Shown in pieces: positions 2 through 13,059 of a stretch of DNA of 13,246 nucleotides. Made by a program: the position numbers and the translations under genes. Numbering within the stretch: the stretch's first letter is position 1; every line of letters begins with the position of its first letter. The notes beneath the pieces are model-generated. The model saw only the letters and a program-made list of their open reading frames with translations. It ran no database searches and was not told the origin of the DNA. The DNA is taken from contig JAJXXM010000024.1 of NCBI GenBank assembly GCA_021781095.1, forward strand, positions 1 to 13,246. The letters are read 5' to 3'. Source of the stretch: a bacterium. GTDB taxonomy: Bacteria > Eremiobacterota > Eremiobacteria > Baltobacterales > Baltobacteraceae.

Positions 2-2137
2 CTCGAGAGCGGGCGCGCGAAGATCGATGCCGTCCTGCCGATGGCGATCGAGCATGGCGCCGCGGTCGTCGCGCTGACCATCGACGAGGCGGGCATGGCG
101 AAGACCGCGCAACGCAAGGCCGAGGTGGCGCGACGCATCTACGATATCGTCGTCGGCGAATATGGATTGAAACCCGGGGCGTTGATCTTAGACGACCTTA
201 CCTTTACGCTCGCGACCGGCGATGCCGAGTATATCGATTCGGCGCGCGAAACGATCGACGGCATTCGTGCGATCAAGGCGGCGCTTCCCGGCGTGCTCAC
301 CTCGTTGGGCGTCAGCAACGTATCGTTCGGCCTGAAGCCGGCCGCCAGAGCGGCGCTGAATTCCGTTTTTCTCCATCATTGCGTCGAAGCCGGTCTCGAC
401 CTCGCGCTCGTGCATCCCAAAGAGATCACGCCGTATGCGGAACTCGATGCCGAAGAACGCGAGGCTTGCGACGATCTCGTTTTCAATCGACGCCCCGACG
501 CGCTCGCGCGCTTTATCGAACGCTACGAGCATGCCGTCGTTCGTGCCGACGGCGATGCAGCGAGCGACGACGACGATTCGCCCGCCGAGGCGCGCATCCA
601 TCAGGCGATTCTCCGTCGTAAGAAGGACGGCATCGAAGCGATGCTCGACGAGGTGTTGCAGCGTCGAACCCCCGTTGAGGTGCTCAACGAAGTGCTGTTG
701 CCGGCGATGAAAGAGGTCGGCGACCGCTTCGGGGCCGGCGAACTCATCCTTCCCTTCGTCCTCCAGTCCGCAGAGGTGATGAAACGCGCGGTCGCTCACG
801 TCGAACAATTCCTCGAACGTCGCGACGGCAGCACGAAAGGCACGGTCGTGCTCGCGACGGTCTTCGGCGACGTACACGACATCGGGAAGAATCTCGTCAA
901 TACGATTCTTTCGAATAACGGGTATACCGTCCACGATCTCGGCAAACAGGTGCCGATGAACGTCATTCTCGAGAAGGCGAGCGAGGTCAACGCCGATGCA
1001 ATCGGCCTCTCCGCGTTGTTAGTTTCGACGAGCAAGCAAATGCCGATTTGCGTGCAAGAACAAGACGCCCGCGCGTTGGAGTTTCCGGTCATCGTCGGCG
1101 GAGCCGCGATCAACCGCGATTTCGGGCGACGGATCGCCCTGCTCGACGATGGCCGACGCACCTTCGAACCCGGCGTGTTCTACGCGAAGGATGCGTTCGA
1201 GGGGCTCGATATCATGGACGTGTTGACCGGGGAGCCGGAACGGCGGCGCGATTTTGTCGAGCGTGTGAAAAACGAGGCGCTCAAGGCGCAAGAAAAAGTG
1301 CGGGAGCTCACCCAGCCCTCCGGCGACCTTCGCATATCGAGCGTTAAAAGCGTTCTTGTCGAACCACCGCAAGCGCCCTTCCTCGGTGCGCGGAGCATCG
1401 ATGCGATCGACGTTCGCGAACTATGGGAATGCTTCGATCTCAAATCGCTCTACCGTCTCTCGTGGGGCGCGAGCAATCAGAAGGGCGAAGCGTTCGAAGA
1501 AACGGTACGCGAAGAATTCGAACCGCGGCTCGCTCGCTTTCGTGCCGAGGCCGAGCGTGGTGGAATTCTCCACCCACGCGTCGTCTACGGATATTTTCCA
1601 GCCGCCGGCATTGGGAACGAGATTCTGTTCTTCGATCCCAATGATCCGACGCGCGAAATCGCCCGCATGACGTTTGCGCGCCAGGTCGGCGGGGAGCATC
1701 TATCGCTCGCCGATTATCTTCGCGAGCCGGTCTCCGGTGCCGCCTCCGATATCATCGCACTTCAGGTGGTGACGGTCGGTGCCGAGGTCGGCGATGAAAT
1801 CGAAAGGCTGCACGCACGCGGCGACTTTAGCGAATCGTATTTCTTGCACGGCTTTTCGGTTCAGTCCGCAGAGGCGCTCGCGGAGTGGGGCCACCGTCGC
1901 ATTCGCCGCGAACTCGGCTTGGCGCCCGAGCGAGGCAAACGCTATTCGTGGGGCTACGGCGCCTGTCCGGATCTCTCGCAGCACGAGACCGCCTTCGCGC
2001 TGTTGGGCGCCGAGGAAGCGATTGGGGTCCGCCTCACCGAGAGTTTTCAAATCGTCCCCGAGCAGTCCACCGCAGCGCTCGTGATCCATCATCCCAACGC
2101 GAGTTATTTTAACGCGGCGGCGACGATCGAACGCTGA
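2..2137 (+). CDS. metH: Cobalamin-dependent methionine synthase, C-terminal part (5' end outside window)
   Basis: This enzyme transfers the methyl group of 5-methyltetrahydrofolate via cobalamin to homocysteine, giving methionine in the cytoplasm. The frame is open to the window edge, so the gene is 5'-truncated; the homocysteine domain and most of the pterin domain lie upstream. Numbering from the internal Met codon at 41, the end of the pterin-binding barrel covers about 1-165, with the family motif TIDEAGMAKT near residue 13. A helical cobalamin cap follows at about 185-262, then a B12 Rossmann domain at about 265-400. That domain carries the base-off motif DVHDIG (277-282, axial His279 at bases 875-877), SxL (324-326) and GG (353-354). 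The reactivation domain spans about 440-695 with the AdoMet motif RxxxGY (634-639) and CPDLSQHET after it. All key residues seen are intact. It is followed by 67 bases and then a polysaccharide gene, with no obvious functional link. Confidence 0.97.
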   Translation, partial: LESGRAKIDAVLPMAIEHGAAVVALTIDEAGMAKTAQRKAEVARRIYDIVVGEYGLKPGALILDDLTFTLATGDAEYIDSARETIDGIRAIKAALPGVLTSLGVSNVSFGLKPAARAALNSVFLHHCVEAGLDLALVHPKEITPYAELDAEEREACDDLVFNRRPDALARFIERYEHAVVRADGDAASDDDDSPAEARIHQAILRRKKDGIEAMLDEVLQRRTPVEVLNEVLLPAMKEVGDRFGAGELILPFVLQSAEVMKRAVAHVEQFLERRDGSTKGTVVLATVFGDVHDIGKNLVNTILSNNGYTVHDLGKQVPMNVILEKASEVNADAIGLSALLVSTSKQMPICVQEQDARALEFPVIVGGAAINRDFGRRIALLDDGRRTFEPGVFYAKDAFEGLDIMDVLTGEPERRRDFVERVKNEALKAQEKVRELTQPSGDLRISSVKSVLVEPPQAPFLGARSIDAIDVRELWECFDLKSLYRLSWGASNQKGEAFEETVREEFEPRLARFRAEAERGGILHPRVVYGYFPAAGIGNEILFFDPNDPTREIARMTFARQVGGEHLSLADYLREPVSGAASDIIALQVVTVGAEVGDEIERLHARGDFSESYFLHGFSVQSAEALAEWGHRRIRRELGLAPERGKRYSWGYGACPDLSQHETAFALLGAEEAIGVRLTESFQIVPEQSTAALVIHHPNASYFNAAATIER

Positions 2138-2204
2138 AACGCGAGCGGCAGGGTTTCCTCCTCGGGCCGCTAAGGAACGGCGTACTTGGTCGATAGGAGA
2201 AACT
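2138..2204 (+). other. Short intergenic spacer with weak inverted repeat
   Basis: This 67-base gap separates metH from the nucleotide-sugar dehydrogenase. It contains AGCGGC (2144-2149) and GCCGCT (2166-2171), a 6-bp stem with a 16-base loop and no T-run. That makes it a poor terminator candidate. I see no convincing -35/-10 pair. Either metH transcription reads through, or a promoter lies inside metH. Confidence 0.3.
2195..2199 (+). promoter_or_regulatory. Ribosome binding site for the nucleotide-sugar dehydrogenase
   Basis: AGGAG ends five bases before the ATG at 2205. This is a good Shine-Dalgarno match and the best ribosome binding site at the head of the polysaccharide cassette, which supports 2205 as the start. 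Confidence 0.75.
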
Positions 2205-3662
2205 ATGGGAAAGCGCGCTGACGGTCTCTCTGTATCGAGACCGCTCTCAATACACGTTGATGAGCTCGTTCGGCGTCTCACCACGAGGACCGCCACGATC
2301 GGCATCATCGGTCTCGGCTACGTCGGTCTTCCGCTCGCAGTCGAGTTCGCTTCGGTTTTTCCCAAGGTACTCGGATTCGATATCAACCCCGAGCGCGTCG
2401 TTTTGCTGAACTCCGGCCGCTCGCATATTCGCGACGTTCCCGAGGAACGCGTCACCGAGTTGGTCGGGAACGAACGCTTTGAATGCAGTAGCGATTTTTC
2501 TCGGCTCGCGGAATGTGACGCGGTCGTTATTTGCGTCCCAACGCCGTTGGGCATTGGGAATCTTCCCGATCTCACGTGCATTTTCGACGCTGCGGAGCAG
2601 GTCGCCGGGGCGCTCCGACCCGGCCAACTCGTGGTGTTAGAATCGACGACCTATCCCGGCACGACCGAAGAGGCGCTGGTCCCCATTCTCGAACGATCGA
2701 ACCTCCGCTTGGACCGCGATTTCCTTGCCGCGTTCTCGCCGGAGCGCATCGATCCGGGGCGCGACCTCCCGCTGCGCCGGATCCCGAAAGTCATCGGGGG
2801 TTGCAGCGAGCGCTCCACCGCCGCCGCGCGCGTGTTGTACGATGCGATATTCGAAGAGACGCATGTCGTGTCGTCGGCACGCGCCGCCGAGACGGTAAAG
2901 CTCCTGGAAAATACCTTTCGCCTCGTGAATATCGGCTTCATCAACGAATTCGCACGGCTCTGCCGACAGCTCAACATCGACAGCGGTGAAGTGATCGCCG
3001 CCGCCTCGACGAAGCCGTTTGGTTTCATGCCGTTTCAGCCTGGTCCCGGCGTCGGCGGCCATTGTATTCCGCTCGATCCGCACTACCTCGCGTGGGAGTC
3101 GAAGCGACAGGGCTTTACGTCGCGATTTATCGAGCTCGCAGAGGACGTAAACTCGCAGATGCCCGGATACGTCGTCGACCTGATCGCCGCCGCCCTCAAC
3201 GAGTCGCGAAAATCGTTGCGGGATGCACGCATTCTCGTCATCGGCGTTGCGTATAAGAAAAATATCGACGATACGCGGCGCAGCCCCGCCGTCGCGGTCA
3301 TCGACCGCTTGCGCATGCGGGGCGCCGTCGTCTCCTATCACGATCCCTACGTCGCCGAACTCAACGGGCGGCATAACGATTGGCCGGAATGGCGTCCGCG
3401 CGTGATCGTACCCTACGAACGTCGTTCGAGCGACCGATCGAACGGAGCGGATTCGTTGCGGAGGCGCCGAGTCGACACGCTCGAGAGCGTGCCGCTCGAT
3501 CCCTCGCACGTCGCACGAGCGGATTGCGTCGTCATCCTCACCGATCACGATGCCGTCGACTACCACACGATTCTCGAGAACGCTTCGTTAATCGTCGATA
3601 CGCGCCAGGTGATCACTCCCGAGCGGGCGGCGGCAACCTCGGCGACGGTATTCGCCCTATGA
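2205..3662 (+). CDS. UDP-glucose/GDP-mannose dehydrogenase family nucleotide-sugar 6-dehydrogenase
   Basis: This is probably an NAD-dependent enzyme that oxidises C6 of a UDP-sugar (UDP-GlcNAc, UDP-Glc or similar) to a uronic acid, in two steps through a cysteine thiohemiacetal. In its 485 residues the N-terminal Rossmann motif GLGYVG lies at 36-41. The central helix segment ETVKLLEN (229-236) precedes the catalytic loop GVGGHCIPLDP, with catalytic Cys287. The C-terminal UDP-binding half shows KKNIDDTRRSP (351-361). The GVGGHCIP form resembles WbpA/TviB-type UDP-HexNAc dehydrogenases, but the substrate cannot be fixed by eye. About 30 Arg-rich residues around 395-425 look inserted relative to the usual C-terminal domain, and a roughly 28-residue leader precedes the Rossmann fold. 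The ATG is backed by AGGAG. The stop overlaps the next start (ATGA), so the pair is likely translationally coupled. Confidence 0.93.
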   Translation: MGKRADGLSVSRPLSIHVDELVRRLTTRTATIGIIGLGYVGLPLAVEFASVFPKVLGFDINPERVVLLNSGRSHIRDVPEERVTELVGNERFECSSDFSRLAECDAVVICVPTPLGIGNLPDLTCIFDAAEQVAGALRPGQLVVLESTTYPGTTEEALVPILERSNLRLDRDFLAAFSPERIDPGRDLPLRRIPKVIGGCSERSTAAARVLYDAIFEETHVVSSARAAETVKLLENTFRLVNIGFINEFARLCRQLNIDSGEVIAAASTKPFGFMPFQPGPGVGGHCIPLDPHYLAWESKRQGFTSRFIELAEDVNSQMPGYVVDLIAAALNESRKSLRDARILVIGVAYKKNIDDTRRSPAVAVIDRLRMRGAVVSYHDPYVAELNGRHNDWPEWRPRVIVPYERRSSDRSNGADSLRRRRVDTLESVPLDPSHVARADCVVILTDHDAVDYHTILENASLIVDTRQVITPERAAATSATVFAL

Positions 3663-4633
3663 AGGTGCTCGTAACGGGAGGCGCGGGCTTTATCGGCTCG
3701 CATCTCTGCGACGCGTTACTCGACGCAGGCCACGAAATCGTCGCGCTCGACGATCTCTCGACCGGGAATCTCGCCAATCTTACCGGGGCGCTCGCGCGTC
3801 GCGGCAGTCGATTCGTCCAAGGCGATATTCGCGATGCACTGGTCGTAGAACGTGCGATGGACGGCTGCGATGCCGTCGTGCACCTGGCCGCGCGGATCGG
3901 CCTGCGAATTATCGTTGAGAGCCCCTTCGACACGCTCGACGTCAACGCGCGCGGCACCGAGAGCGTCGTACAAGCCGCGCTAAAACGAAAGACCCCGATC
4001 GTTATCGCATCGACCTCCGAGGTGTACGGGCACTCGACGAAGATTCCGTCGAACGAAGGGGACCCGATTTGCTTCGGATCGCCAACCGTCGGGCGATGGA
4101 GCTACGCCTGCGCGAAAGCCTACGACGAATTTTATTCGCTCGCCTTGCAGCGCGAACGCGCGCTCCCGGTCGTGGTCGTGCGCCTTTTCAATACCGTCGG
4201 GGCGAGGCAGAGCGGGCGTTACGGCATGGTCGTGCCCCGTCTCACCGCCCAGGCGCTCGCCGGAGAGCCGTTGACGGTCTACGGCGACGGAACGCAGACG
4301 CGCTGCTTTTGTTCGGTCCACGACGTCACCGATGCATTCATGTCGATCTTGCACGATATCGGTACGCTCGCCGGTGAGGTGCTCAATATCGGTAACCCGC
4401 GCGAAATGACCATTCTGGATCTCGCGAAACGCATCGTCGAACGAACCGCATCGAGATCGACCATCGAATTCGTTCCTTTCTCGCTCGCGTATCCGCAGGG
4501 CTTCGAAGAGATCATGCGCCGGGTTCCGGATATTACCAAGGCGCGGCGCGCCATCGCCTTCGAACCGAAGGTGGGGCTCGACGAGATTCTCGATGACGTC
4601 ATCGCGGGGATTCGCGCCCCGTCTCGCCGATGA
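3659..4633 (+). CDS. NAD-dependent epimerase/dehydratase (extended SDR) acting on a nucleotide sugar
   Basis: This 324-residue protein is an extended short-chain dehydrogenase. The NAD-binding motif GGAGFIGSH sits at 7-15, STSEVYG at 118-124 supplies the catalytic Ser/Thr region, and the active-site pair Tyr149-x3-Lys153 is in SYACAK. RLFNTVG (175-181) and the substrate-loop segment YGDGTQTRCF (208-217) are typical of UDP-sugar 4-epimerases and UDP-glucuronate decarboxylase/dTDP-glucose dehydratase relatives. It probably converts the product of the upstream dehydrogenase, or a parallel nucleotide sugar; epimerase, decarboxylase and dehydratase remain possible. The start is the ATG at 3659, which overlaps the upstream stop as ATGA and begins exactly at the Rossmann strand. 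The open frame continues upstream to 3380, but that part lies inside the dehydrogenase gene and has no family character. Its stop again overlaps the next ATG. Confidence 0.92.
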   Translation: MKVLVTGGAGFIGSHLCDALLDAGHEIVALDDLSTGNLANLTGALARRGSRFVQGDIRDALVVERAMDGCDAVVHLAARIGLRIIVESPFDTLDVNARGTESVVQAALKRKTPIVIASTSEVYGHSTKIPSNEGDPICFGSPTVGRWSYACAKAYDEFYSLALQRERALPVVVVRLFNTVGARQSGRYGMVVPRLTAQALAGEPLTVYGDGTQTRCFCSVHDVTDAFMSILHDIGTLAGEVLNIGNPREMTILDLAKRIVERTASRSTIEFVPFSLAYPQGFEEIMRRVPDITKARRAIAFEPKVGLDEILDDVIAGIRAPSRR

Positions 4634-5415
4634 AACGCCGGCTCGTGCTTGCGACGGTCGCGCTCGCCGTGACGATTCCGGGGCACGTCGCCGCGCGCTG
4701 CGCTCTGCCGCCGCCTCCGACGCAACGCGTCGTTCTCCAAGAAGGAGCGTCGGCGGCAACGTTAACGAAGGGGCGCGGAAACTGGAGCGGTGCGTCGGTC
4801 CTCGTCGTCGCCCGCGACGGCAATAAACGATCGGCGTACGTTCGCGCTGCCGACGACGTGCGATTCGGAGAGGACGATAACGAGTACGAGGCGGGAACCT
4901 ATCTTGCGGTGACGCCGCACGTCATTGCCGACCTCATCGGCTCGTTTAGCCCACAACACAACGTGCTCCCCGCATCGAGCGCTCAGGGCGATCTCGATCT
5001 GCGGGCCGGAGGCGGATATGGCTACCAGGCCGGGTATGCCACTCGACAATACACGTCGGTAGGAGCCTCCATCGAGCACGTCGGCATGGACCGCTATTTT
5101 CGCGACCTTCGCCTGGCGGGCACGATCACGTTCGCTCGGTTGAGCAACGTGCCGGGGATCGCGCTCTCCGAGGGAGTTTCGATGGCGCGCTATCTGCCAT
5201 GCGACACCGAAAATTTCGCACTTTCGACCGGACGCGACGTGGAGAACGTCGGTTTCGGAACTCCCCCCGCCGTCTATCATAGCCTGTCGTTTTCTCTGGG
5301 CGACACGCATCGGTTGTCGTCGCGCATTGGATTGGCGATCGCCATGGGTTGGTATGGTTTGACCGGCGCCTACGATCGCCTCGAGGTACGCGTTGCACTT
5401 CGCGAGCGCCTCTGA
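4630..5415 (+). CDS. YaiO-family outer-membrane beta-barrel protein
   Basis: The 261-residue protein begins with a signal peptide: KRR at 2-4, a hydrophobic core at about 5-17, and a likely signal peptidase I site after Ala22 (V-A-A). After a Pro-rich stretch (26-30), residues from about 50 to the end alternate polar and hydrophobic positions with many Gly, Tyr and aromatic residues, as in barrel strands. They match the YaiO family pattern from memory: EYEAGTYLAVTPH (85-97), an RAGGGYGYQAGY segment (125-136), GASIEHVGMDRYF (145-157), and a closing strand ending in LEVRVALRERL. E. coli YaiO is an outer-membrane protein of about this length with poorly known function. The ATG overlaps the upstream stop (ATGA) without a clear ribosome binding site, suggesting coupling. 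Its place between sugar-nucleotide enzymes and a processive-type glycosyltransferase suggests a role in polysaccharide passage or anchoring; this is inference. Confidence 0.8.
   Translation: MKRRLVLATVALAVTIPGHVAARCALPPPPTQRVVLQEGASAATLTKGRGNWSGASVLVVARDGNKRSAYVRAADDVRFGEDDNEYEAGTYLAVTPHVIADLIGSFSPQHNVLPASSAQGDLDLRAGGGYGYQAGYATRQYTSVGASIEHVGMDRYFRDLRLAGTITFARLSNVPGIALSEGVSMARYLPCDTENFALSTGRDVENVGFGTPPAVYHSLSFSLGDTHRLSSRIGLAIAMGWYGLTGAYDRLEVRVALRERL
5383..5386 (+). promoter_or_regulatory. Ribosome binding site deciding the TTG start at 5393
   Basis: GAGG lies six bases before TTG 5393, inside the end of the YaiO-family gene. The next in-frame ATG (5462) has no such site before it and would remove about half of the membrane anchor. 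The TTG start is therefore preferred. Confidence 0.6.
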
Positions 5416-6538
5416 ACCACTATTATGGCTCATCGAGGTAAGCGTTCTTTTCTCCTCGATCATGACCGCCGCGTTGATCGTTGCGTTCGTCTTTATTCGG
5501 ACGCGCAATTCGTTCGCTCGACGGCGGCAGAATATTCTGACGCAGCGATGGCGTTCGATTTTTAAAACGGCCTATACGGGCGAGGCGCTCCCCGAGGTTC
5601 TTCCTCGTGTCGGTCGCCGCGATTGGTTTACCGTGATCGCGCTTTTTTCGCAGTTCCATCAACTGCGCGATAAAGATCGCGACCGCGCTCGTGAAGTGCT
5701 GCCCAAACTCGATGCGATCGCGTACGCTATCGAGCTCGATCGACACGCGCTCTACTGGCTCGGCCGCGGGGACGATGCGGAGAAAATCCTCGCGTTGACG
5801 GCGCTCGGGCAGCTGCGCGATCCCGCGGCGCTCGACGACGCCATTCGTCTCTCCGCCGACGAAGGCGCGGAACTCTCCCGCGCCGCCGCACAGTGTGCGC
5901 TGCGCATCGATCCGCGCTTTACCGACGGCGTCCTCGAATTAGTGCGCGACCGCGACGACTGGGTTCGCTCGCGCGTCGAGGGCATGCTCAAGGAGATCGA
6001 TCGCATCGATCTCGACGAGGCGTTGCGCGCGGCGATCGCGACCGCCGATGAAGCGGGCCGGCGTCGGCTTCTCGATTTCGTCCGGTTCTGTTCCCCATCG
6101 CCGGCGCGCGCGGTCTGTAAACGCGTGCTCGAAGAGTCTGAGGAGAGCGAGACGATTGCGGCGGCGCTTCGCTCCCTCGCCCCGTTGGCCTCGGAGGAAG
6201 ACCGCGCGCTCGCACTGCGGTACTGCGCCCACGAGTCACCAATCGTGCTCCTCTCGGCGTTGCGCGTGCTGAGGAAATGCGTCCGGTACGACGATCGCGA
6301 AACGCTCCTCCGGTTGGCATCGCACCGAGACTATTGGGTTCGCTTACGTGCCGCCGAGGCGATCGTGGAACTGTACGGAGAGAGCGGATTGCTCGAAGAT
6401 TTCCTCGTCGAGGTGAAAGACCGCTACGCGCGGGATGCGATAACGCAGGCGATCGCGGAGCGAAAAATGATGGCGCAGCGTTCGCCGACGCGCGACCGCC
6501 GAGCGGCATCGCAGGGAGCACCGGAGGCGCGGTTGTGA
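5393..6538 (+). CDS. Membrane-anchored HEAT-repeat protein
   Basis: This protein of 381 residues has one N-terminal membrane segment at about 9-35, followed by a strongly basic stretch, RTRNSFARRRQ (36-46). The positive-inside rule puts the rest in the cytoplasm. Residues about 70-355 are helical with HEAT/PBS-lyase-like repeats, recognisable by LALTALGQLRDPAALDDAI (133-151), DDWVRSRVEGML (188-199), IVLLSALRVLRK (284-295) and DYWVRLRAAEAIVELYG (313-329). Such alpha-solenoids bind other proteins. No catalytic motif is visible. The start is TTG 5393, which overlaps the preceding gene by 23 bases and has GAGG six bases upstream; it is needed to give a full membrane segment. The stop overlaps the glycosyltransferase GTG start, so the two proteins are likely made together and may form a complex. 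The C-terminal 25 residues look disordered and basic. Confidence 0.85.
   Translation: MHFASASEPLLWLIEVSVLFSSIMTAALIVAFVFIRTRNSFARRRQNILTQRWRSIFKTAYTGEALPEVLPRVGRRDWFTVIALFSQFHQLRDKDRDRAREVLPKLDAIAYAIELDRHALYWLGRGDDAEKILALTALGQLRDPAALDDAIRLSADEGAELSRAAAQCALRIDPRFTDGVLELVRDRDDWVRSRVEGMLKEIDRIDLDEALRAAIATADEAGRRRLLDFVRFCSPSPARAVCKRVLEESEESETIAAALRSLAPLASEEDRALALRYCAHESPIVLLSALRVLRKCVRYDDRETLLRLASHRDYWVRLRAAEAIVELYGESGLLEDFLVEVKDRYARDAITQAIAERKMMAQRSPTRDRRAASQGAPEARL
6523..6527 (+). promoter_or_regulatory. Ribosome binding site deciding the GTG start at 6535
   Basis: GGAGG, a strong Shine-Dalgarno match, lies seven bases before GTG 6535 and within the end of the HEAT-repeat gene. The in-frame ATG at 6559 has no comparable site, so GTG 6535 is the chosen start. 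Confidence 0.7.
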
Positions 6539-7971
6539 GCGTATACGGGCATCAAGCCATGGACGGAGCGGTGGCGATCATCGAAACCGTATTGTTTGTC
6601 TATTTTTTAATTATCAACGGTTACTATGCATTTACCGGGGGCGTGGCGTTGCTCCGCCTACCAAGTTTCGTAAAAATGCATCTCGCCGATCCGGTGCGCC
6701 GTTCGAATTCGACACTCGACCGCCCGGTCACCATGCTGGTGCCCGCGTTCAACGAGCGCGAGATCATCGTCACCTCGGTTCGATCGATGTTGGCGCTCGA
6801 ATACGTCAATTTCGAGATCGTCGTCGTTAACGACGGCTCTACCGACGACACGCTCGAACGGCTGCACGAAGCCTTCGATCTCGAACCCTACGAAGGGATC
6901 TATCGCGTCGAACTCCCTACCGAAGAGGTTCGCGAAGTCTATCAATCCCGTCTCCATCCCGAATTGCGCGTCATCGACAAAGCGAACGGCGGGAAGGGCG
7001 ACGCGCTCAATGCCGGCATCAATCTTTCGCGGTATCCGCTACTCTTTACGGCCGATGCGGATTCCTACTATCACCGACAGACGCTGCAATGGATGGTCGA
7101 GCCCTTCCAGCGCGATCCGCGAACGGTGGTCGTCGGTGGAGCGGTCGCCGTCGGAAACGCCTCGACGCCGGTCGACGATAAGCCCTTCGAACCCTCGCTT
7201 CCAAAAAATATGATGCAGCTCTTCCAGGTGCTCGAGTATTTGCGCGCCTTCCTGGCCACGCGGATGGGCTTCGCGCCGTTCAACGCCCTCGGCATCGTTT
7301 CGGGGGCCTGCGGACTCTGGCGGCGCGACATTCTCATCTCGTGCGAGGGCTTTCGCACCGATACGATTTGGGAAGATATGGAGATGACGCTTCGCGTTCA
7401 TAATTATTGTATCAATACGGGGCGCCCGTATCGGATCGCTTTTTCACCGTTTCCGGTCTGTTGGACCGACGTCCCGGCATCGCCGAAGGTGCTCTACAAC
7501 CAACGCAAGGGCTGGCACCGCCACCTCTCCGAGTGCGTCGTCATTCACCGGAAACTCCTCTTCGGCAACGGCGGAATCTTTAGTTGGGTGACGATGCCCT
7601 ATCTGGTGTTTTTCGAATGGCTCGCTCCGGTGGTGGTGATCGGCGGCGTCATTTTTTCGCTCGTCATGGCGGTACTCGGGTATCTGGACTGGCGGACGCA
7701 ATGGTGGTTGCTCGCCCTCGTGTTCGTGTTGGCAATGTTCGGGTCGATCATCAGCATTCTGCTCGACGAGATATCGTTCACCGCGTATCGGCTCAGCCAA
7801 GTGTGGGTGTTGTTCGCAGCGGCACTCCTGGAAAATTTTGGTTATCGGCAGTTCGTCATGGTCGCGAATCTCTCGGGACTCCTCGCCTGGCTCTTCCGTC
7901 GGCCGATCCGAGGGAATACCAAATATCCCGGGCTCTTCGTCGCACCTTGGGTTCCCAAGAACCGCGACTGA
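6535..7971 (+). CDS. Membrane-embedded family 2 glycosyltransferase (PgaC/cellulose-synthase-like)
   Basis: This is an inner-membrane transferase that probably polymerises a sugar from a UDP-sugar and may extrude the chain, as PgaC, hyaluronan synthase and BcsA do. Its 478 residues start with a membrane segment (about 11-40). The cytoplasmic GT-A domain follows with VPAFNE (69-74), VVVNDGSTDDT (96-106), KGDALNAG (154-161), the DxD motif Asp174/Asp176, and the proposed catalytic acidic motif WEDMEM (279-284). The processivity motif is QRKGW (323-327), where most relatives have QxxRW; the usual Arg is Gly326. Three or four further membrane segments lie at about 355-382, 388-410, 418-435 and 440-455. 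GTG 6535 overlaps the HEAT gene stop and has GGAGG seven bases upstream. The frame stays open back to 6277, but that part lies within the HEAT gene. The polymer made is unknown. Confidence 0.92.
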   Translation: MSVYGHQAMDGAVAIIETVLFVYFLIINGYYAFTGGVALLRLPSFVKMHLADPVRRSNSTLDRPVTMLVPAFNEREIIVTSVRSMLALEYVNFEIVVVNDGSTDDTLERLHEAFDLEPYEGIYRVELPTEEVREVYQSRLHPELRVIDKANGGKGDALNAGINLSRYPLLFTADADSYYHRQTLQWMVEPFQRDPRTVVVGGAVAVGNASTPVDDKPFEPSLPKNMMQLFQVLEYLRAFLATRMGFAPFNALGIVSGACGLWRRDILISCEGFRTDTIWEDMEMTLRVHNYCINTGRPYRIAFSPFPVCWTDVPASPKVLYNQRKGWHRHLSECVVIHRKLLFGNGGIFSWVTMPYLVFFEWLAPVVVIGGVIFSLVMAVLGYLDWRTQWWLLALVFVLAMFGSIISILLDEISFTAYRLSQVWVLFAAALLENFGYRQFVMVANLSGLLAWLFRRPIRGNTKYPGLFVAPWVPKNRD

Positions 7972-7993
7972 ACGAGCGAAAGCAGGAAGGGGC

Positions 7994-8010
7994 GGTCCGT
8001 TAGGCGGACC
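7994..8010 (+). terminator. Perfect 6-bp hairpin between glycosyltransferase and cyclase-like gene (possible weak terminator)
   Basis: GGTCCG (7994-7999) and CGGACC (8005-8010) pair perfectly around a five-base loop, 23 bases after the glycosyltransferase stop. Only two T residues follow directly, so it is not a classical intrinsic terminator. It could be a weak or attenuating stop at the end of the polysaccharide cassette, or an mRNA-stabilising hairpin. I see no clear promoter in the remaining 36 bases before the next gene. Confidence 0.35.
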
Positions 8011-8033
8011 TTACACCTCGTCTTCCGTGAATT

Positions 8034-8038
8034 GGAGG
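8034..8038 (+). promoter_or_regulatory. Ribosome binding site deciding the ATG start at 8047
   Basis: GGAGG lies eight bases before ATG 8047. It overlaps a possible upstream TTG start at 8032, which would itself have no binding site. ATG 8047 is therefore the start. Confidence 0.8.
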
Positions 8039-8046
8039 TTCCGAGC

Positions 8047-9081
8047 ATGTCCCTGACTCCTCGTGGATTGCTGACTGCACTCATCGCCGTGCTTCGTTTT
8101 CTTTTGGGCCTCATCGTTTGGGTCGCTTCGGTGACGCTGCTCGGCCTCTTCGCGCTCGAGTTTGTGCACGCGCCGCGCCTCGAAACGACGGCGCTCGTTC
8201 GGCTCGCACATCGCCTCGCGGACGCCGATATTCGCATGGTGTCGCGGTGGTTCGGGCTCTCGTGGCCGAGCGCCGGACGCATCAATTACGCCCCGTTGGG
8301 AATCGCGGTCGCGGTTTGGATCGCGAAAGGCATTCTCGATTCGGTTTTGCAACGGCTCGATTATATCGTCCGGCGGACCTTTAAAGCGTCATCGCGCAGC
8401 GGACTGAGCGCTCCTCGTGCCGACGGCGCCGACGGCGCGCTCTCGATGCGTAAGCTCGATGCGGAATCCGAGCACCACCGCGGCATCTTGTTAAAGCGAT
8501 ATCGTGAGATCGAAGGCGCCCTGAAATCCTCATCGCGCAAGCCCTGTACGTTTCTTTCGATCGATATCGTGGGATCGACGAAGATGAAGGTCGGCGAGCG
8601 GCCGACCGCCGTCGCGGCAACCTTTCAGGCCTATGAAGAGATGGTTCGCAATACGTTCGATGCCTACAGCGTTTGGAAGCAGACCTGGACCCCCGACGGA
8701 GTCATGGCCTGCTTCCTCGACCGCGATCTCGGCGTCTCGGCCGGGCAGCGCGTCCTCGCGGAGCTCGAGCGATTCAACCGCGATGAGAATCAGTTGCGCA
8801 CGCCCATCGAGGTGCGTTGCGGGCTCAATGACGGCGACGTCGTGATCTTCGAAGATAGTCAACTCGAGAAGGTCGCCGATCACGCCATCGACGTCGCCGG
8901 ACACATGCAAAAACACGCGAATATCAACGCGCTTTGGCTGAGCACCGAGGTCTTCGAACGGCTCGAAAATAAGGCCGGATTCGTGCCCGTCGAGGCCGAG
9001 GTCGACGGCTTTTCGGTCGTCGAATGGACGCCGATGGCCGAAGCGGTGGGAGCGCCAGGGGAGAGCGACCGTCCGGGCTAA
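8047..9081 (+). CDS. Membrane protein with degenerate class III nucleotidyl cyclase-like domain
   Basis: In 344 residues there are two membrane segments (about 12-38 and 82-98), then a basic stretch (QRLDYIVRRTFK, 102-113) that places the rest in the cytoplasm. A linker at about 114-160 follows, then a cyclase homology domain at about 165-328. The first metal-binding motif is SIDIVGST with Asp173. A second Asp, Asp217 in TPDG, lies 44 residues later, the canonical spacing. Other expected residues are changed: the KTxGD segment reads TWTPD (213-217), and the transition-state pattern NxAxR reads DVAGH (282-286). It may bind a nucleotide without cyclising it, act as a regulatory partner, or belong to a divergent active subfamily. 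It ends ten bases before the transporter operon and follows the polysaccharide cassette after a hairpin, so its partner system is unclear. Confidence 0.82.
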   Translation: MSLTPRGLLTALIAVLRFLLGLIVWVASVTLLGLFALEFVHAPRLETTALVRLAHRLADADIRMVSRWFGLSWPSAGRINYAPLGIAVAVWIAKGILDSVLQRLDYIVRRTFKASSRSGLSAPRADGADGALSMRKLDAESEHHRGILLKRYREIEGALKSSSRKPCTFLSIDIVGSTKMKVGERPTAVAATFQAYEEMVRNTFDAYSVWKQTWTPDGVMACFLDRDLGVSAGQRVLAELERFNRDENQLRTPIEVRCGLNDGDVVIFEDSQLEKVADHAIDVAGHMQKHANINALWLSTEVFERLENKAGFVPVEAEVDGFSVVEWTPMAEAVGAPGESDRPG

Positions 9082-9091
9082 TCCGTCGGGC

Positions 9092-10312
9092 ATGAGATCG
9101 CCTCGCACCGCCGCTCTTGCGGCCATTCTTTTGCTCGCCTCACCCTTGGCCGCTTGCTCGAGCGGCCCGGCGCCGGCTTCCACCACGATCGGGATCGGCG
9201 TCGACCTGCCGCTCTCGGGCGCAGACGCCTCCGTCGGCACTAGCACGCTCGACGGAATCAAGCTCGCCGTTGCGCGCGCGAACGCCCAGGGCGTTCCCGG
9301 CGGATTCACGTTTGCCGTGCAGGCGCTCGACGACACGCAGCAGGGCGTTCACAACCCCCAGCAGGGAGCGAGCAACGTGCGCACCCTCATCGCCGACGAT
9401 AGCGTGTTGGCGATTATCGGCCCCTATAACTCGAACGTCGCCGCGGCGGAGATTCCCATTACCAATCAAGCGGGAATCGTGCAGATCAGTCCCTCGGCAG
9501 TCAGCGATGGGCTAACGTTAGGCAAGGACGCGGCGATGTTGCGCCGCGCAAATCCCGGCGTCAATACGTTTTTTCGCGTCTGTACGACCGATTCGCGGCA
9601 GGGCTCGGCCGCGGCGCGTTTCGCACTCGATCTCAAACTGAAGCGCGCGTATATCGTCGACGATAACGAAACCTACGGGCTCGATCTCGCCAACGTGTTC
9701 GCGCGCGATTTTACCAAGCTCGGCGGTACGGTCCTCGGGCGCGACCACATCGCTCCCGACACGCAAGATTTCAAGGCGCTCCTTTTGAAAATCAAGGGAT
9801 ACAAGCCCGATTTTATTTTCTTCGGTGGTACGACGAGTACCGGCGGAGGTTTGCTGCGGCGCCAGATGTTCGACGTCGGCATGGGTAAGCTCGCGTTCAT
9901 GGGCGGCGACGGCATCCCCGACATCGCCGAAGTTGCGAAGAAACGCGCTGACGGGACCTATTACACCGTCGCCGCGCCGAATGCCGATCTCCTGCCCGCG
10001 GCGAAGCGTTTCGTCGCCGCCTACAAGGCCAAATTCGGCAGCGACGTCGGCCCATATAGCGCGAATGCGTACGCGGCGACGCAGGTCGCGATCTCGGCGA
10101 TCGAACAGGCGATCGAAGCGAACGGAAAAAAGATGCCGACCCGGGCCGAGGTGCTGGCCAAAATGCCGCGTAACGCCAAGAACGAAGTGCTCACCCCGAT
10201 CGGACCGATCTCTTTCGATAAGAACGGCGACGTCCGCAAACCCGTGATTTCGCTCTACGCAATACGCAACGGTCGTTCGTCGTTCATCGAGCAGCTCAAC
10301 TTAAGCGAATAG
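9092..10312 (+). CDS. livK: Branched-chain amino-acid-type ABC transporter substrate-binding lipoprotein
   Basis: This is the periplasmic binding component of a HAAT-family importer, delivering an amino acid, short amide, urea or similar ligand to the membrane complex. The 406-residue protein has a lipoprotein signal: basic N-terminus, hydrophobic core at about 7-16 and lipobox LAAC with lipidated Cys22. The mature part is a two-lobe type I periplasmic binding fold (Peripla_BP_6). The first strand motif IGIGVDLPLSG (33-43) is followed by DGIKLAVARAN, the ligand-lobe loop IIGPYNSN (110-117) and ISPSAVSD (129-136). The second lobe begins near RAYIVDDNETYGLDLA, and FIFFGGTTS is a typical hinge-side strand. 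The ligand cannot be named; relatives bind Leu/Ile/Val, urea, short amides or aromatic acids. No Shine-Dalgarno is visible before ATG 9092. The stop lies four bases before the permease TTG. Confidence 0.9.
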   Translation: MRSPRTAALAAILLLASPLAACSSGPAPASTTIGIGVDLPLSGADASVGTSTLDGIKLAVARANAQGVPGGFTFAVQALDDTQQGVHNPQQGASNVRTLIADDSVLAIIGPYNSNVAAAEIPITNQAGIVQISPSAVSDGLTLGKDAAMLRRANPGVNTFFRVCTTDSRQGSAAARFALDLKLKRAYIVDDNETYGLDLANVFARDFTKLGGTVLGRDHIAPDTQDFKALLLKIKGYKPDFIFFGGTTSTGGGLLRRQMFDVGMGKLAFMGGDGIPDIAEVAKKRADGTYYTVAAPNADLLPAAKRFVAAYKAKFGSDVGPYSANAYAATQVAISAIEQAIEANGKKMPTRAEVLAKMPRNAKNEVLTPIGPISFDKNGDVRKPVISLYAIRNGRSSFIEQLNLSE

Positions 10313-10316
10313 CCGC

Positions 10317-11228
10317 TTGCACGAGTTTCTCGCTCAACTTGCCAACGGCGTCGAGCTCGGCGCGATCTATGCCTTGATCGCGCTCGGCTACACGCTGGTC
10401 TACGGTATTCTCGAGCTCATCAACTTCGCTCACGGCGACGTCTATACGTTCGGCTCCTTCGTCGCGCTCGGCATCCTGGTGGGGCTGCGCGCGGCGGGCG
10501 TCTTGCACGGCGCGGGCCTCGTGCTTGGAATCGCCGCGGCGCTGATCGCCGCGATTCTTGCAAGCGCACTTCTGAACGCCGGGATCGAACGGCTCGCCTA
10601 CCGCCGGCTACGAAAGGCACCGCGGCTCGCACCGTTGATCACCGCAATCGGCGTTTCGTTCATGCTCGAAAACCTCATCGAGCTCTGGCAGGGCTCCGCC
10701 CCGGTTCCATTCCCCAACGTCATTCCGAACCCACAGCTGCAGATCGGCGCGCTCGAGATCGGCGTCCAACAGATCGTCGTCGTCGCGCTGGCTATCGTGA
10801 CGATGATCGCGCTTCATCTTTTCGTACAGCGCAGTAAACTCGGTAAGGCGATGCGCGCGGTCGCGCAGGATCGCGATGCGGCTTCGTTGGTCGGGATTAA
10901 CGTCGATCGAACGATCGCGATGACGTTCCTTATCGCCGGTGCGCTCGCGGGGGTCGCGGGCTTCGTCGGCGGCGTGTCGTTCGGTTCGGCATGGTTCCTC
11001 AACGGCTTCGGCGCCGGTCTGCGCGCGTTTACCGCCGCGGTTCTCGGAGGTATCGGCAATATCGCCGGCGCGATGCTCGGCGGATTCCTCATCGGCATGC
11101 TCGAGTCGTTTTCCACGTGGTTGATCGGCGGACAGTGGAGTAACGTCGCCGTATTCTCGGTCTTAATCCTCGTATTGGTCTTCCGCCCGAGCGGGCTGCT
11201 CGGAGAGACGTTGCCGGAGAAAGTGTGA
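10317..11228 (+). CDS. livH: Branched-chain amino-acid ABC transporter permease LivH
   Basis: This is one of two inner-membrane permease subunits of the importer. Its 303 residues are very hydrophobic, with about eight membrane segments. Family motifs are GAIYALIALGYTLVYGI (15-31), INFAHGD (35-41), and the cytoplasmic coupling loop SKLGKAMRAVAQDRDAA (173-189), which contacts the ATPase. GGIGNIAGAMLGG (244-256) and the C-terminal FRPSGLLGE are also typical. The start must be TTG 10317, because an in-frame TAA lies at 10302-10304 and the LivH fold begins directly after; no strong ribosome binding site is visible, so reinitiation after the binding-protein stop is likely. Its TGA overlaps the GTG start of livM. 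Length matches the family. Confidence 0.94.
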   Translation: MHEFLAQLANGVELGAIYALIALGYTLVYGILELINFAHGDVYTFGSFVALGILVGLRAAGVLHGAGLVLGIAAALIAAILASALLNAGIERLAYRRLRKAPRLAPLITAIGVSFMLENLIELWQGSAPVPFPNVIPNPQLQIGALEIGVQQIVVVALAIVTMIALHLFVQRSKLGKAMRAVAQDRDAASLVGINVDRTIAMTFLIAGALAGVAGFVGGVSFGSAWFLNGFGAGLRAFTAAVLGGIGNIAGAMLGGFLIGMLESFSTWLIGGQWSNVAVFSVLILVLVFRPSGLLGETLPEKV

Positions 11229-12301
11229 TTTACACCTACGCGCTCGTCGCCATCGCGGCGTGCGTTGCGATCGAACGTTTCCACAATCGGCGCGCAAAGA
11301 CGGCGATCGTGCTGCTGCTTGCCGCATTCCTCGCCATCGCTCCCCGCTTTTACGGAAACGATGCCGTTTTTAGCGTGCTCGCCGATGCCGCCGTCTACGT
11401 CATGCTCGCCCTCGGCCTCAATATCGTCGTCGGTTTCGCCGGGCTGCTCGATCTCGGGTATGCGGCATTCTTCGCAATCGGCGCCTATACGTACGGCATG
11501 CTCGCCAGCCCGCAGTTCGGTCTCCACCTGCCGTTTTGGGCGCTGCTCTTTCTCGCCGCGGCGCTCGCCGCACTCTTCGGTGCGCTCCTAGGTGCGCCGA
11601 CGCTCCGCCTTCACGGGGACTATCTCGCGATCGTCACCCTCGGATTCGGCGAAATCGTGCCGCAGATTTTCCAAAATCTTACGAAATACACCGGCGGCCC
11701 CAATGGCATCGCCGCGCTCGACGTGCCGACGTTTTTCGGGCATTCGTTCGGAGCCTCGGTCATGCCCTATTATTATATCGCGCTATTCGGCATCGCCGCG
11801 GCGCTCTGGCTCTCCCGGAACCTCCGCGAGAGCCGCCTGGGGCGGGCGTGGATGGCGATACGCGAGGACGAACTCGCGGCGAAGCATGCGGGCATCGACA
11901 TCCTGCGTTCGAAGCTTGCGGCGTTCGCGATCGGCGCGTCGTTCTCTGGTATCGGCGGCGTTCTCTTCGCAGCGAAGCTCGCGCTCGTCTCGCCGGATCT
12001 CTTTGGCTTCCAAGTGAGCGTGCTCATCGTGTCGATGTTGGTGCTGGGCGGCATGGGCAACATCGTCGGCGTCGTCGTCGGCAGCTTGCTGTTGACGATC
12101 GTGAACTCGGCTTTGCTCCCGCAGATCAATTCATTGGTCGACGCGACGTTTCATACGACGATCGATCTTTCGAATCTCCACTTTCTCATTTACGGTGCGA
12201 TTCTCGTCGGAATCATGCTCTTTCGTCCGGAAGGACTGCTGCCCAATCGCGAGCGGCGGGCGGAGTTGCACCACGCGGGCGAAGCGGCGGCCGACGCATG
12301 A
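11225..12301 (+). CDS. livM: Branched-chain amino-acid ABC transporter permease LivM
   Basis: This is the second permease subunit, pairing with LivH. Of its 358 residues about 30-335 hold the membrane segments. Family motifs are GLNIVVGFAGLLDLGYAAFFAIGAY (in 64-88), LRLHGDYLAIVTLGFGEI (127-144), TGGPNGI (156-162), and the ATPase-coupling loop SRLGRAWMAIREDELAAKHAG (203-223). GGMGNIVG (275-282) and FRPEGLLP (333-340) close the conserved part. GTG 11225 overlaps the livH stop as GTGA, and GGAGA at 11216-11220 lies four bases upstream. The first membrane segment follows an unusually early hydrophobic stretch at residues 5-14, so the exact N-terminal topology is uncertain. The TGA overlaps the ATG of livG. 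Confidence 0.94.
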   Translation: MIYTYALVAIAACVAIERFHNRRAKTAIVLLLAAFLAIAPRFYGNDAVFSVLADAAVYVMLALGLNIVVGFAGLLDLGYAAFFAIGAYTYGMLASPQFGLHLPFWALLFLAAALAALFGALLGAPTLRLHGDYLAIVTLGFGEIVPQIFQNLTKYTGGPNGIAALDVPTFFGHSFGASVMPYYYIALFGIAAALWLSRNLRESRLGRAWMAIREDELAAKHAGIDILRSKLAAFAIGASFSGIGGVLFAAKLALVSPDLFGFQVSVLIVSMLVLGGMGNIVGVVVGSLLLTIVNSALLPQINSLVDATFHTTIDLSNLHFLIYGAILVGIMLFRPEGLLPNRERRAELHHAGEAAADA

Positions 12302-13059
12302 GCTTGCTCGCCCTTTCCGGAGTGGGGAAACGCTTCGGTGCGCTGGCGGCACTCGCCAACGTGAGCTTTGAGGTCGACGAAGGAGCGATCTTCGGCATCA
12401 TCGGCCCCAACGGAGCTGGAAAATCGACGCTCTTCAATCTCTTGACGGCGATTTACCGATTCGACGAGGGAAATATTTCGGTCGGCGGCGTTTCGATCGC
12501 GGGGCTCACCACGCAACGTATCGCACGCCTCGGCGTCGCGCGAACCTTCCAGAACCTTCGCCTATTCGGCAACGCCTCGGCACTCGCGAACGTGATGGTC
12601 GGCGAGCACCTGATTCTCGAGTCGACGATCTTCGATTCGCTCTTCAATACCGGCAAGGAGCGACGCGAACGTACCGAAGCGGAGCGACGCGCGCGCGAGC
12701 TCTTGCGCTTCGTCGGCATAACGGGGGTCGAAGAGCAATTCGCGCGCAACCTGCCGTACGGTACGCAGCGCCGCCTCGAGATCGCTCGGGCACTGGCGGC
12801 GCGCCCGCGATTGCTGCTGCTCGACGAGCCTGCCGCGGGGCTCAACCCATCGGAAAAGCACGAACTCATAGCGTTGATCCGTGCGATTCGAGAAGCCGGC
12901 ACGACGGTGCTCTTGATCGAGCACGACATGGGCCTCGTGATGAATCTGTGCGAGCGTATCGTCGTCCTCGACTATGGCGAAATGATCGCCGAGGGGGCGC
13001 CGCAGGAGATTCGCGAGCACCCTCGCGTGATCGAGGCGTATTTGGGCGCGCCGGCATGA
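12298..13059 (+). CDS. livG: Branched-chain amino-acid ABC transporter ATP-binding protein LivG
   Basis: This is one of two cytoplasmic ATPases driving the importer. The 253-residue protein has Walker [10 protein letters not shown] (36-44), Q-loop Gln85 in RTFQNLRLF, and the signature [10 protein letters not shown] (152-161), a variant of the common LSYGQQRRLE. Walker B is [13 protein letters not shown] (172-184) with Glu177 as catalytic base, and the H-loop His209 is in LLIEHDM. The extended helical part and the NPxE segment after Walker B are typical of LivG. The start is ATG 12298, overlapping the livM stop (ATGA) and beginning exactly at the ATPase fold. The frame is open further upstream, to 11536, only within livM. 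Confidence 0.95.

Follow-up and report, generated by a model that had tools for sequence, protein, structure and literature searches.

What do five overlapping genes accomplish together when two encode nucleotide-sugar enzymes, one an outer-membrane barrel of the YaiO family, one a membrane-anchored HEAT protein and one a family 2 glycosyltransferase (GT2)? This question is raised by positions 2205 to 7971 of a 13,246-nucleotide stretch of contig JAJXXM010000024.1, from a member of the Baltobacteraceae (Candidatus Eremiobacterota); the whole stretch is referred to here as the window. We propose that the five genes probably constitute a synthase-dependent exopolysaccharide module, in which GT2 adds sugars, the HEAT protein serves as its dedicated cytoplasmic partner and YaiO provides the way out through the outer membrane. 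The module is real and widely conserved, and its general kind, the synthase-dependent secretion of polysaccharides, is already known. For its HEAT-GT2 core pair we found no description in the literature searched, most subscription papers lying outside that search, and within the same limits no paper was found that contains both 'HEAT repeat' and 'YaiO'.

All five genes lie on the forward strand, and their families were assigned by curated Pfam and NCBIfam models with cut-offs. The first (2205..3662) encodes a UDP-sugar 6-dehydrogenase with a GGHCIPLDP motif (TIGR03026, 390 bits, cut-off 190), and the second (3659..4633) an extended short-chain dehydrogenase/reductase (SDR) of the epimerase/decarboxylase type, with TSEVYG, YxxxK and TRCF motifs (Epimerase PF01370, 179 bits, cut-off 20.9). 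The third (4630..5415) encodes the YaiO-family barrel, which begins with a signal-sequence-like helix. The fourth (5393..6538) encodes the HEAT protein, with a single N-terminal transmembrane helix; like the barrel, it was modelled with a pLDDT of 91.8. The fifth (6535..7971) has a GTG start and encodes an inner-membrane GT2 (PF00535, 85.9 bits, cut-off 23.3; PF13641) with three hydrophobic segments above the threshold used. Successive open reading frames (ORFs) overlap by 4, 4, 23 and 4 bases; a preliminary description of this DNA had claimed these five ORFs and overlaps, and both they and the coordinates were reproduced.

Searching 149 genomes of the phylum with an alignment of HEAT proteins gave matches in 17, of which 14 were strong (E < 1e-25) and three weak. 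In every one of the 14, YaiO is encoded directly upstream and GT2 directly downstream of HEAT, preceded by the SDR and dehydrogenase genes (in G010 the order is kept and the dehydrogenase is interrupted). The neighbour co-occurrence proposed earlier as a check was therefore found in 14/14 HEAT-positive genomes, which supports the idea of a conserved module of surface-polysaccharide type. With the window, these genomes provide 15 loci that we call type A, and 14 of them share the 4/4/23/4 overlaps; the remaining one, G026, has 4/4/17/4 and a CTG where GT2 joins. The coding demands of the YaiO end may in part dictate the invariant TTG start of HEAT. Eight of these genomes are closely related to the window (GT2 identity 91-99%), leaving about seven independent lineages, and the five-gene order persists down to 46% GT2 identity and with different flanking genes. 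In comparisons with three relatives, the ratio of non-synonymous to synonymous substitution rates (Nei-Gojobori) was 0.03-0.14 for all five genes, which are under purifying selection. One might argue that the five are co-transcribed neighbours with no joint function, as dehydrogenases and SDRs serve many pathways and the type-B loci described below lack dehydrogenase, SDR and YaiO. However, the order is kept in 14/14 genomes over some seven lineages with altered flanks and recurs identically on a gammaproteobacterial plasmid, and we regard mere adjacency as very improbable. That plasmid, from Legionella adelaidensis, carries dehydrogenase, SDR, YaiO, HEAT and GT2 in the order of the window, whereas its GT2 is only 26% identical and has a QRDRW motif, its dehydrogenase lacks the GGHCIPLDP motif and a second SDR gene follows.

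The HEAT and GT2 genes are also paired elsewhere in the phylum. Six genomes (G028, G029, G030, G036, G037 and G139) encode a GT2 of 34-39% identity with a HEAT gene directly upstream (Pfam, 53-104 bits). In the first five, the type-B loci, the two genes overlap by 4 bases and a single-domain response regulator precedes HEAT (5/5; PF00072, 72-107 bits), whereas no response regulator stands before the module in the window and the other type-A loci mapped (15 loci). G139 has a broken GT2 frame, with a tetratricopeptide repeat (TPR) protein encoded downstream. Overall, all 20 GT2 matches in the phylum that exceed 170 bits lie immediately downstream of a HEAT gene.

Beyond the phylum, a tblastn search with the window GT2 matched 135 of 72,556 plasmid records, and among the best 60 of these 135 a gap separates the top 14 (at least 184 bits) from the other 46 (at most 126 bits). 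HEAT lies directly upstream of GT2 in all of the top 14 by annotation or Pfam, although the Emticicia HEAT protein, at 25.0 bits, falls just below the cut-off of 27.7; 12 of these loci were examined directly, the remaining two being further Mesorhizobium plasmids with HEAT identified by feature name. By comparison, none of 10 lower-scoring annotated GT2 control loci has an annotated HEAT neighbour, although incomplete PLSDB gene tables mean that absence is not proven for each control; six unnamed neighbours in control loci are not HEAT by Pfam, and H16, which has no gene table, was excluded. Mesorhizobium and Legionella GT2 queries recover the same 14 records, the next ones reaching at most 155 bits for Mesorhizobium and none further appearing among the matches listed for Legionella. 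Judged by full-length similarity above the score gap and by HEAT upstream, the window GT2 belongs to a distinct HEAT-linked clade. Annotations seen name its members only generically, as glycosyltransferases, and a search with one member gave matches to at least 7,994 database proteins (E up to 1e-3).

The plasmid carriers comprise 12 lineages: the archaea Halosolutus, Haloarcula and Salinirubellus; Paenibacillus and Planococcus (Bacillota); Deinococcus radiophilus (Deinococcota); Emticicia and Bacteroides finegoldii (Bacteroidota); Mesorhizobium, Devosia and Erythrobacter (Alphaproteobacteria); and Legionella adelaidensis (Gammaproteobacteria). In 7/12, a response regulator gene precedes the module, either immediately or with one small gene between. 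That the pair occurs in organisms as distant as haloarchaea and Legionella suggests that a large GT2 clade has a cytoplasmic partner dedicated to it. Among the Bacillota loci (L123, L131), the pair is preceded in Planococcus by genes for CotH kinase, polyphosphate polymerase-domain and DUF4956 proteins and in Paenibacillus by two large unannotated ORFs.

Is YaiO the exit? Failure of the 4630..5415 protein to match the YaiO profile had been named beforehand as an outcome that would refute the module idea; the protein scores 73.1 bits with TIGR04390 (cut-off 32) and 38.8 bits with PF19413 (cut-off 23.9). Its model is a 14-stranded beta-barrel, the fold of the YaiO family, and the nearest structures among the matches listed are FadL/TodX-type channels, Omp33, OmpG and CymA. 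Foldseek also pairs it with the PgaA barrel (4y25, TM-score 0.58), which is absent from the 50 matches listed in the other structure comparison. A direct hhalign comparison with Escherichia coli YaiO alone gave no significant alignment, and kinship between the two therefore rests on the TIGR04390 and PF19413 models. In Mesorhizobium, Erythrobacter and Bacteroides, TPR repeats are fused to the YaiO barrel, and a TPR-fused barrel is the layout of PgaA and BcsC. For this reason YaiO is most likely the porin itself, present in the window without a TPR part, and the earlier statement that the module lacks the usual TPR porin needs to be revised.

The distribution of YaiO is consistent with such a role. 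Omp85 is present in 19 of the 20 genomes searched (13/14 type-A), and among the seven plasmid lineages that we take to be diderm, YaiO or TPR-YaiO lies in the cluster in six: Mesorhizobium, Erythrobacter, Emticicia, Bacteroides, Legionella and, in broken frames, Devosia. A small custom YaiO model found no match in the five archaeal and Bacillota plasmid stretches (0/5). Because the proteins of Legionella, Mesorhizobium, Emticicia and Erythrobacter were among those used to build this model, only the Devosia assignment and the absences are confirmed by it; the Bacteroides protein scores 6.3 bits with it and is assigned by Pfam (44.3 bits). Searching the plasmids by tblastn with the window YaiO gave no match, and the sole match to the G026 YaiO, in Lactiplantibacillus (E 0.7), was dismissed as irrelevant. 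The Devosia cluster (L130, 3272-7368), in which the GT2 frame is also broken, is either a decaying copy or affected by sequencing errors.

In E. coli, the gene row is yaiS-yaiP-yaiX-yaiO, with yaiO last, which bears out the vicinity of yaiO and yaiP that the preliminary description had stated. There, too, the barrel adjoins a GT2, YaiP, which is 26% identical to the window GT2; YaiP lies outside the HEAT-linked clade, however, and the row encodes a PIG-L deacetylase and an acetyltransferase where the window has HEAT and UDP-sugar enzymes. An E. coli plasmid (L142, 2741-5938) bears an intact PIG-L, GT2, acetyltransferase and YaiO row, whereas yaiX of K-12 is split by IS2. Within the phylum, YaiO clusters without HEAT contain a GT2-like ORF in 11 of the 16 loci fetched (21-46 bits; checked by Pfam in L103 only). 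Locus L103 (2640-8340), which encodes an unknown 260-residue protein, GT2, LbH-like and deacetylase-like proteins (both below Pfam cut-offs) and YaiO, recalls the E. coli row; further such clusters are L095, L097-L102 and L104-L106. Given the E. coli row, the HEAT-less clusters and the HEAT-linked loci, YaiO accompanies membrane GT2s across several settings. E. coli YaiO is annotated merely as an outer-membrane protein, and the repeated pairing with GT2, together with the TPR fusion in the porin slot, gives it a testable role as a polysaccharide exit. In the parts available, PMC12419801 mentions neither YaiO nor GT2 and PMC7383365 describes YaiO models as deformed.

On which side of the inner membrane does the HEAT protein lie? 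It matches HEAT_2 (PF13646, 38.5 bits, cut-off 27.7), and its helical-repeat model is that of the family, resembling only generic HEAT/ARM folds in the PDB. The transmembrane helix spans residues 17-35, with no positive and two negative charges before it and five positive and no negative charges after it; the positive-inside rule therefore predicts a cytoplasmic superhelix. Among 32 HEAT proteins, positive charges are more numerous after the first helix than before it in 25 and equal in two (G097, whose HEAT is a short ORF of 227 residues, and Haloarcula), while three lack an N-terminal transmembrane helix as annotated (Halosolutus, Devosia and Emticicia). A cytoplasmic HEAT body fits its presence in carriers without an outer membrane and the adjoining cytosolic response regulators. 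The preliminary description had instead suggested that HEAT and barrel might be an export or attachment machine; if this spanned the envelope, HEAT would have to lie in the periplasm. Although the HEAT and YaiO genes share the longest overlap, of 23 bases in 14 of the 15 loci and 17 in the other, the charges run the opposite way, and archaea, Bacillota and five diderm relatives carry the HEAT-GT2 pair without YaiO; we consider this machine improbable. HEAT sequences themselves diverge widely: the window protein aligns weakly with that of G037 (E 0.002, probability 13.5), and type-B and plasmid HEAT proteins are 12-20% identical in the alignment. Because homology is weak, the latter were assigned by position, HEAT profile and transmembrane helix.

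The polymerase step of the proposed module is open to doubt. QxxRW is the motif of processive GT2s. The window GT2 has D100, DAD at 174-176, E280/D281, Q323, R324 and W327 conserved or nearly so, but residues 323-330 read QRKGWHRH in place of QxxRW. In 15/15 type-A GT2s the Arg of the motif is replaced by Gly, Leu or Ser, followed by an invariant Trp-His-Arg-His, whereas it is present in all 16 other aligned GT2s. The lack of this Arg is the chief ground for doubting classic processivity in type-A GT2s, and the change may mark another acceptor or product. The description of the enzyme as 'PgaC-like' also went too far: PgaC/IcaA (TIGR03937) is its top-scoring named NCBIfam model, but the score, 113.5 bits, falls far short of its equivalog cut-off of 422.3 bits, and the cut-offs of the other polymer synthases are missed as well.

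These features suggest an alternative in which GT2 is no polymerase and attaches one sugar or a few to a lipid or another envelope glycan, with YaiO acting on that product in the outer membrane as receptor, enzyme or anchor and with HEAT as a scaffold. The lost Arg and the missed synthase cut-offs favour it, as does the absence from the window module of a periplasmic bridge or PgaB-like enzyme. Yet PgaC/IcaA is still the best-scoring model, the remainder of the clade retains QxxRW, and the barrel is of porin type, with TPR-fused relatives that share the PgaA/BcsC layout. Decoration is accordingly, in our view, an unlikely explanation, though a more credible one than periplasmic HEAT, and we continue to favour the exopolysaccharide module.

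The altered motif weighs against that module, and several other points do so as well. No TPR or lipoprotein bridge across the periplasm is encoded in the window module. Among the diderm plasmid lineages, that of Deinococcus carries a TPR protein which shows no YaiO match, and none was found genome-wide in the five type-B genomes, though Omp85 is present; a strict rule of YaiO in every diderm was dropped on account of these Omp85-positive relatives and Deinococcus. In two of the 32 HEAT proteins, those of Deinococcus and Legionella, fewer positive charges follow the helix than precede it. Distances among HEAT proteins correlate with those among GT2s (rho 0.70, 0/2000 permutations; 21/32 HEAT proteins kept, with Devosia omitted from the GT2 alignment for its broken frame), as expected of partners, yet shared descent alone may produce such a correlation. 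Finally, no HEAT-GT2 fusion occurs among the 120 homologues listed of at least 7,994.

How does the module compare with known systems? PgaABCD and IcaADBC, which make poly-beta-1,6-GlcNAc, combine a GT2 of the inner membrane with a partner protein; PgaABCD also has an outer-membrane barrel. The resemblance of the window lies in its GT2, with PgaC/IcaA as the top named model, and in the structural match between the PgaA barrel and the YaiO model. In contrast, the window GT2 is far below the PgaC cut-off, HEAT takes the place of PgaD and TPR-less YaiO that of PgaA, no PgaB-type deacetylase belongs to the module, and the module brings its own UDP-sugar enzymes; by Pfam and NCBIfam, none of PgaA, PgaB and PgaD is among its proteins. 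The cellulose (Bcs) system shares the logic of GT2 plus outer-membrane barrel, and TPR-barrel proteins occur in several HEAT-linked loci, but the same models found no PilZ domain, BcsB or BcsC among the window module proteins.

The two upstream enzymes have counterparts in the Vi antigen (TviB/TviC) and UDP-Xyl/UDP-XylNAc pathways, in which a UDP-sugar 6-dehydrogenase is likewise followed by an SDR enzyme; the window enzymes, however, miss all equivalog cut-offs. The dehydrogenase belongs to the general subfamily TIGR03026 and falls below every substrate-specific NCBIfam cut-off, its best score being 259.9 of 750 bits. Models of UDP-ManNAc dehydrogenase and TviB outscore the UDP-glucose ones, and the nearest solved relatives are UDP-ManNAcA dehydrogenase, NDP-GalNAcA dehydrogenase and CalS8. 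By these comparisons the enzyme is nearer to UDP-N-acetylhexosamine (UDP-HexNAc)-type than to UDP-glucose-type dehydrogenases, with CalS8 also close. The SDR has UDP-glucuronate decarboxylase UXS1 as its best solved match (159 bits) and is below the NCBIfam cut-offs of LegB (166 of 475 bits), PRK11908 (129 of 294) and GalE (127 of 262); a decarboxylase seems as likely as an epimerase. Candidate donors are a UDP-HexNAc uronate, UDP-XylNAc, UDP-Xyl and UDP-GlcA.

Based on these observations, we propose the following model. First, C6 of a UDP-sugar would be oxidised by the dehydrogenase, whose product the SDR would turn into the donor by decarboxylation or epimerisation. The inner-membrane GT2 would then add sugars at the cytosolic face and thread the chain through the membrane. 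The HEAT protein, anchored by one helix and with its body in the cytoplasm, would contact GT2 directly as its dedicated assembly or switch subunit, and in some lineages this subunit is probably under response-regulator control. Finally, the chain would leave through the 14-stranded YaiO barrel. More tentatively, the HEAT-GT2 pair could be a switchable polysaccharide synthase, general among bacteria and archaea and not yet described, in which the membrane-fixed cytoplasmic HEAT superhelix holds and gates GT2, phosphorylation of the adjoining response regulators drives GT2 where they are encoded, and YaiO or TPR-YaiO is an add-on exit in many diderms. We put this forward as a possibility that is rather less likely than not to hold in full; if true, the switch would be a protein-based counterpart of control by cyclic di-GMP and PilZ.

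A possible sixth member (8050..9081, forward strand), a membrane protein with a cyclase-like domain, is suggested by its position after GT2 in relatives. Such a protein is encoded after GT2 in G001-G009 and less than 5 kb from HEAT-less YaiO clusters in G071, G090, G098 and G099; it is unlinked in G072 and G075. Of the 15 genomes that match it strongly, 13 thus show it linked to a YaiO-GT2 cluster; these clusters are of two types, and it may be a control protein common to both. The window protein has no Pfam match, and an adenylate cyclase in the PDB was matched only at E 0.33; by eye the domain is class III cyclase-like, without obvious sign of the usual catalytic Asn/Arg. Scanning 1900-9200 for promoters gave no sigma-70-like site, which is uninformative. 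Flanking the module are a MetH-like gene upstream (41-2137) and a Liv-type branched-chain amino-acid ABC transporter downstream (9092-13059), both named by eye; they are kept beside it in close relatives only and are unmatched in G009, G075, G069, G026 and G097. In G075, a second YaiO-like gene immediately precedes the five-gene module (L091, 5125-5934), and one HEAT relative and one YaiO relative bear the source label mine drainage metagenome.

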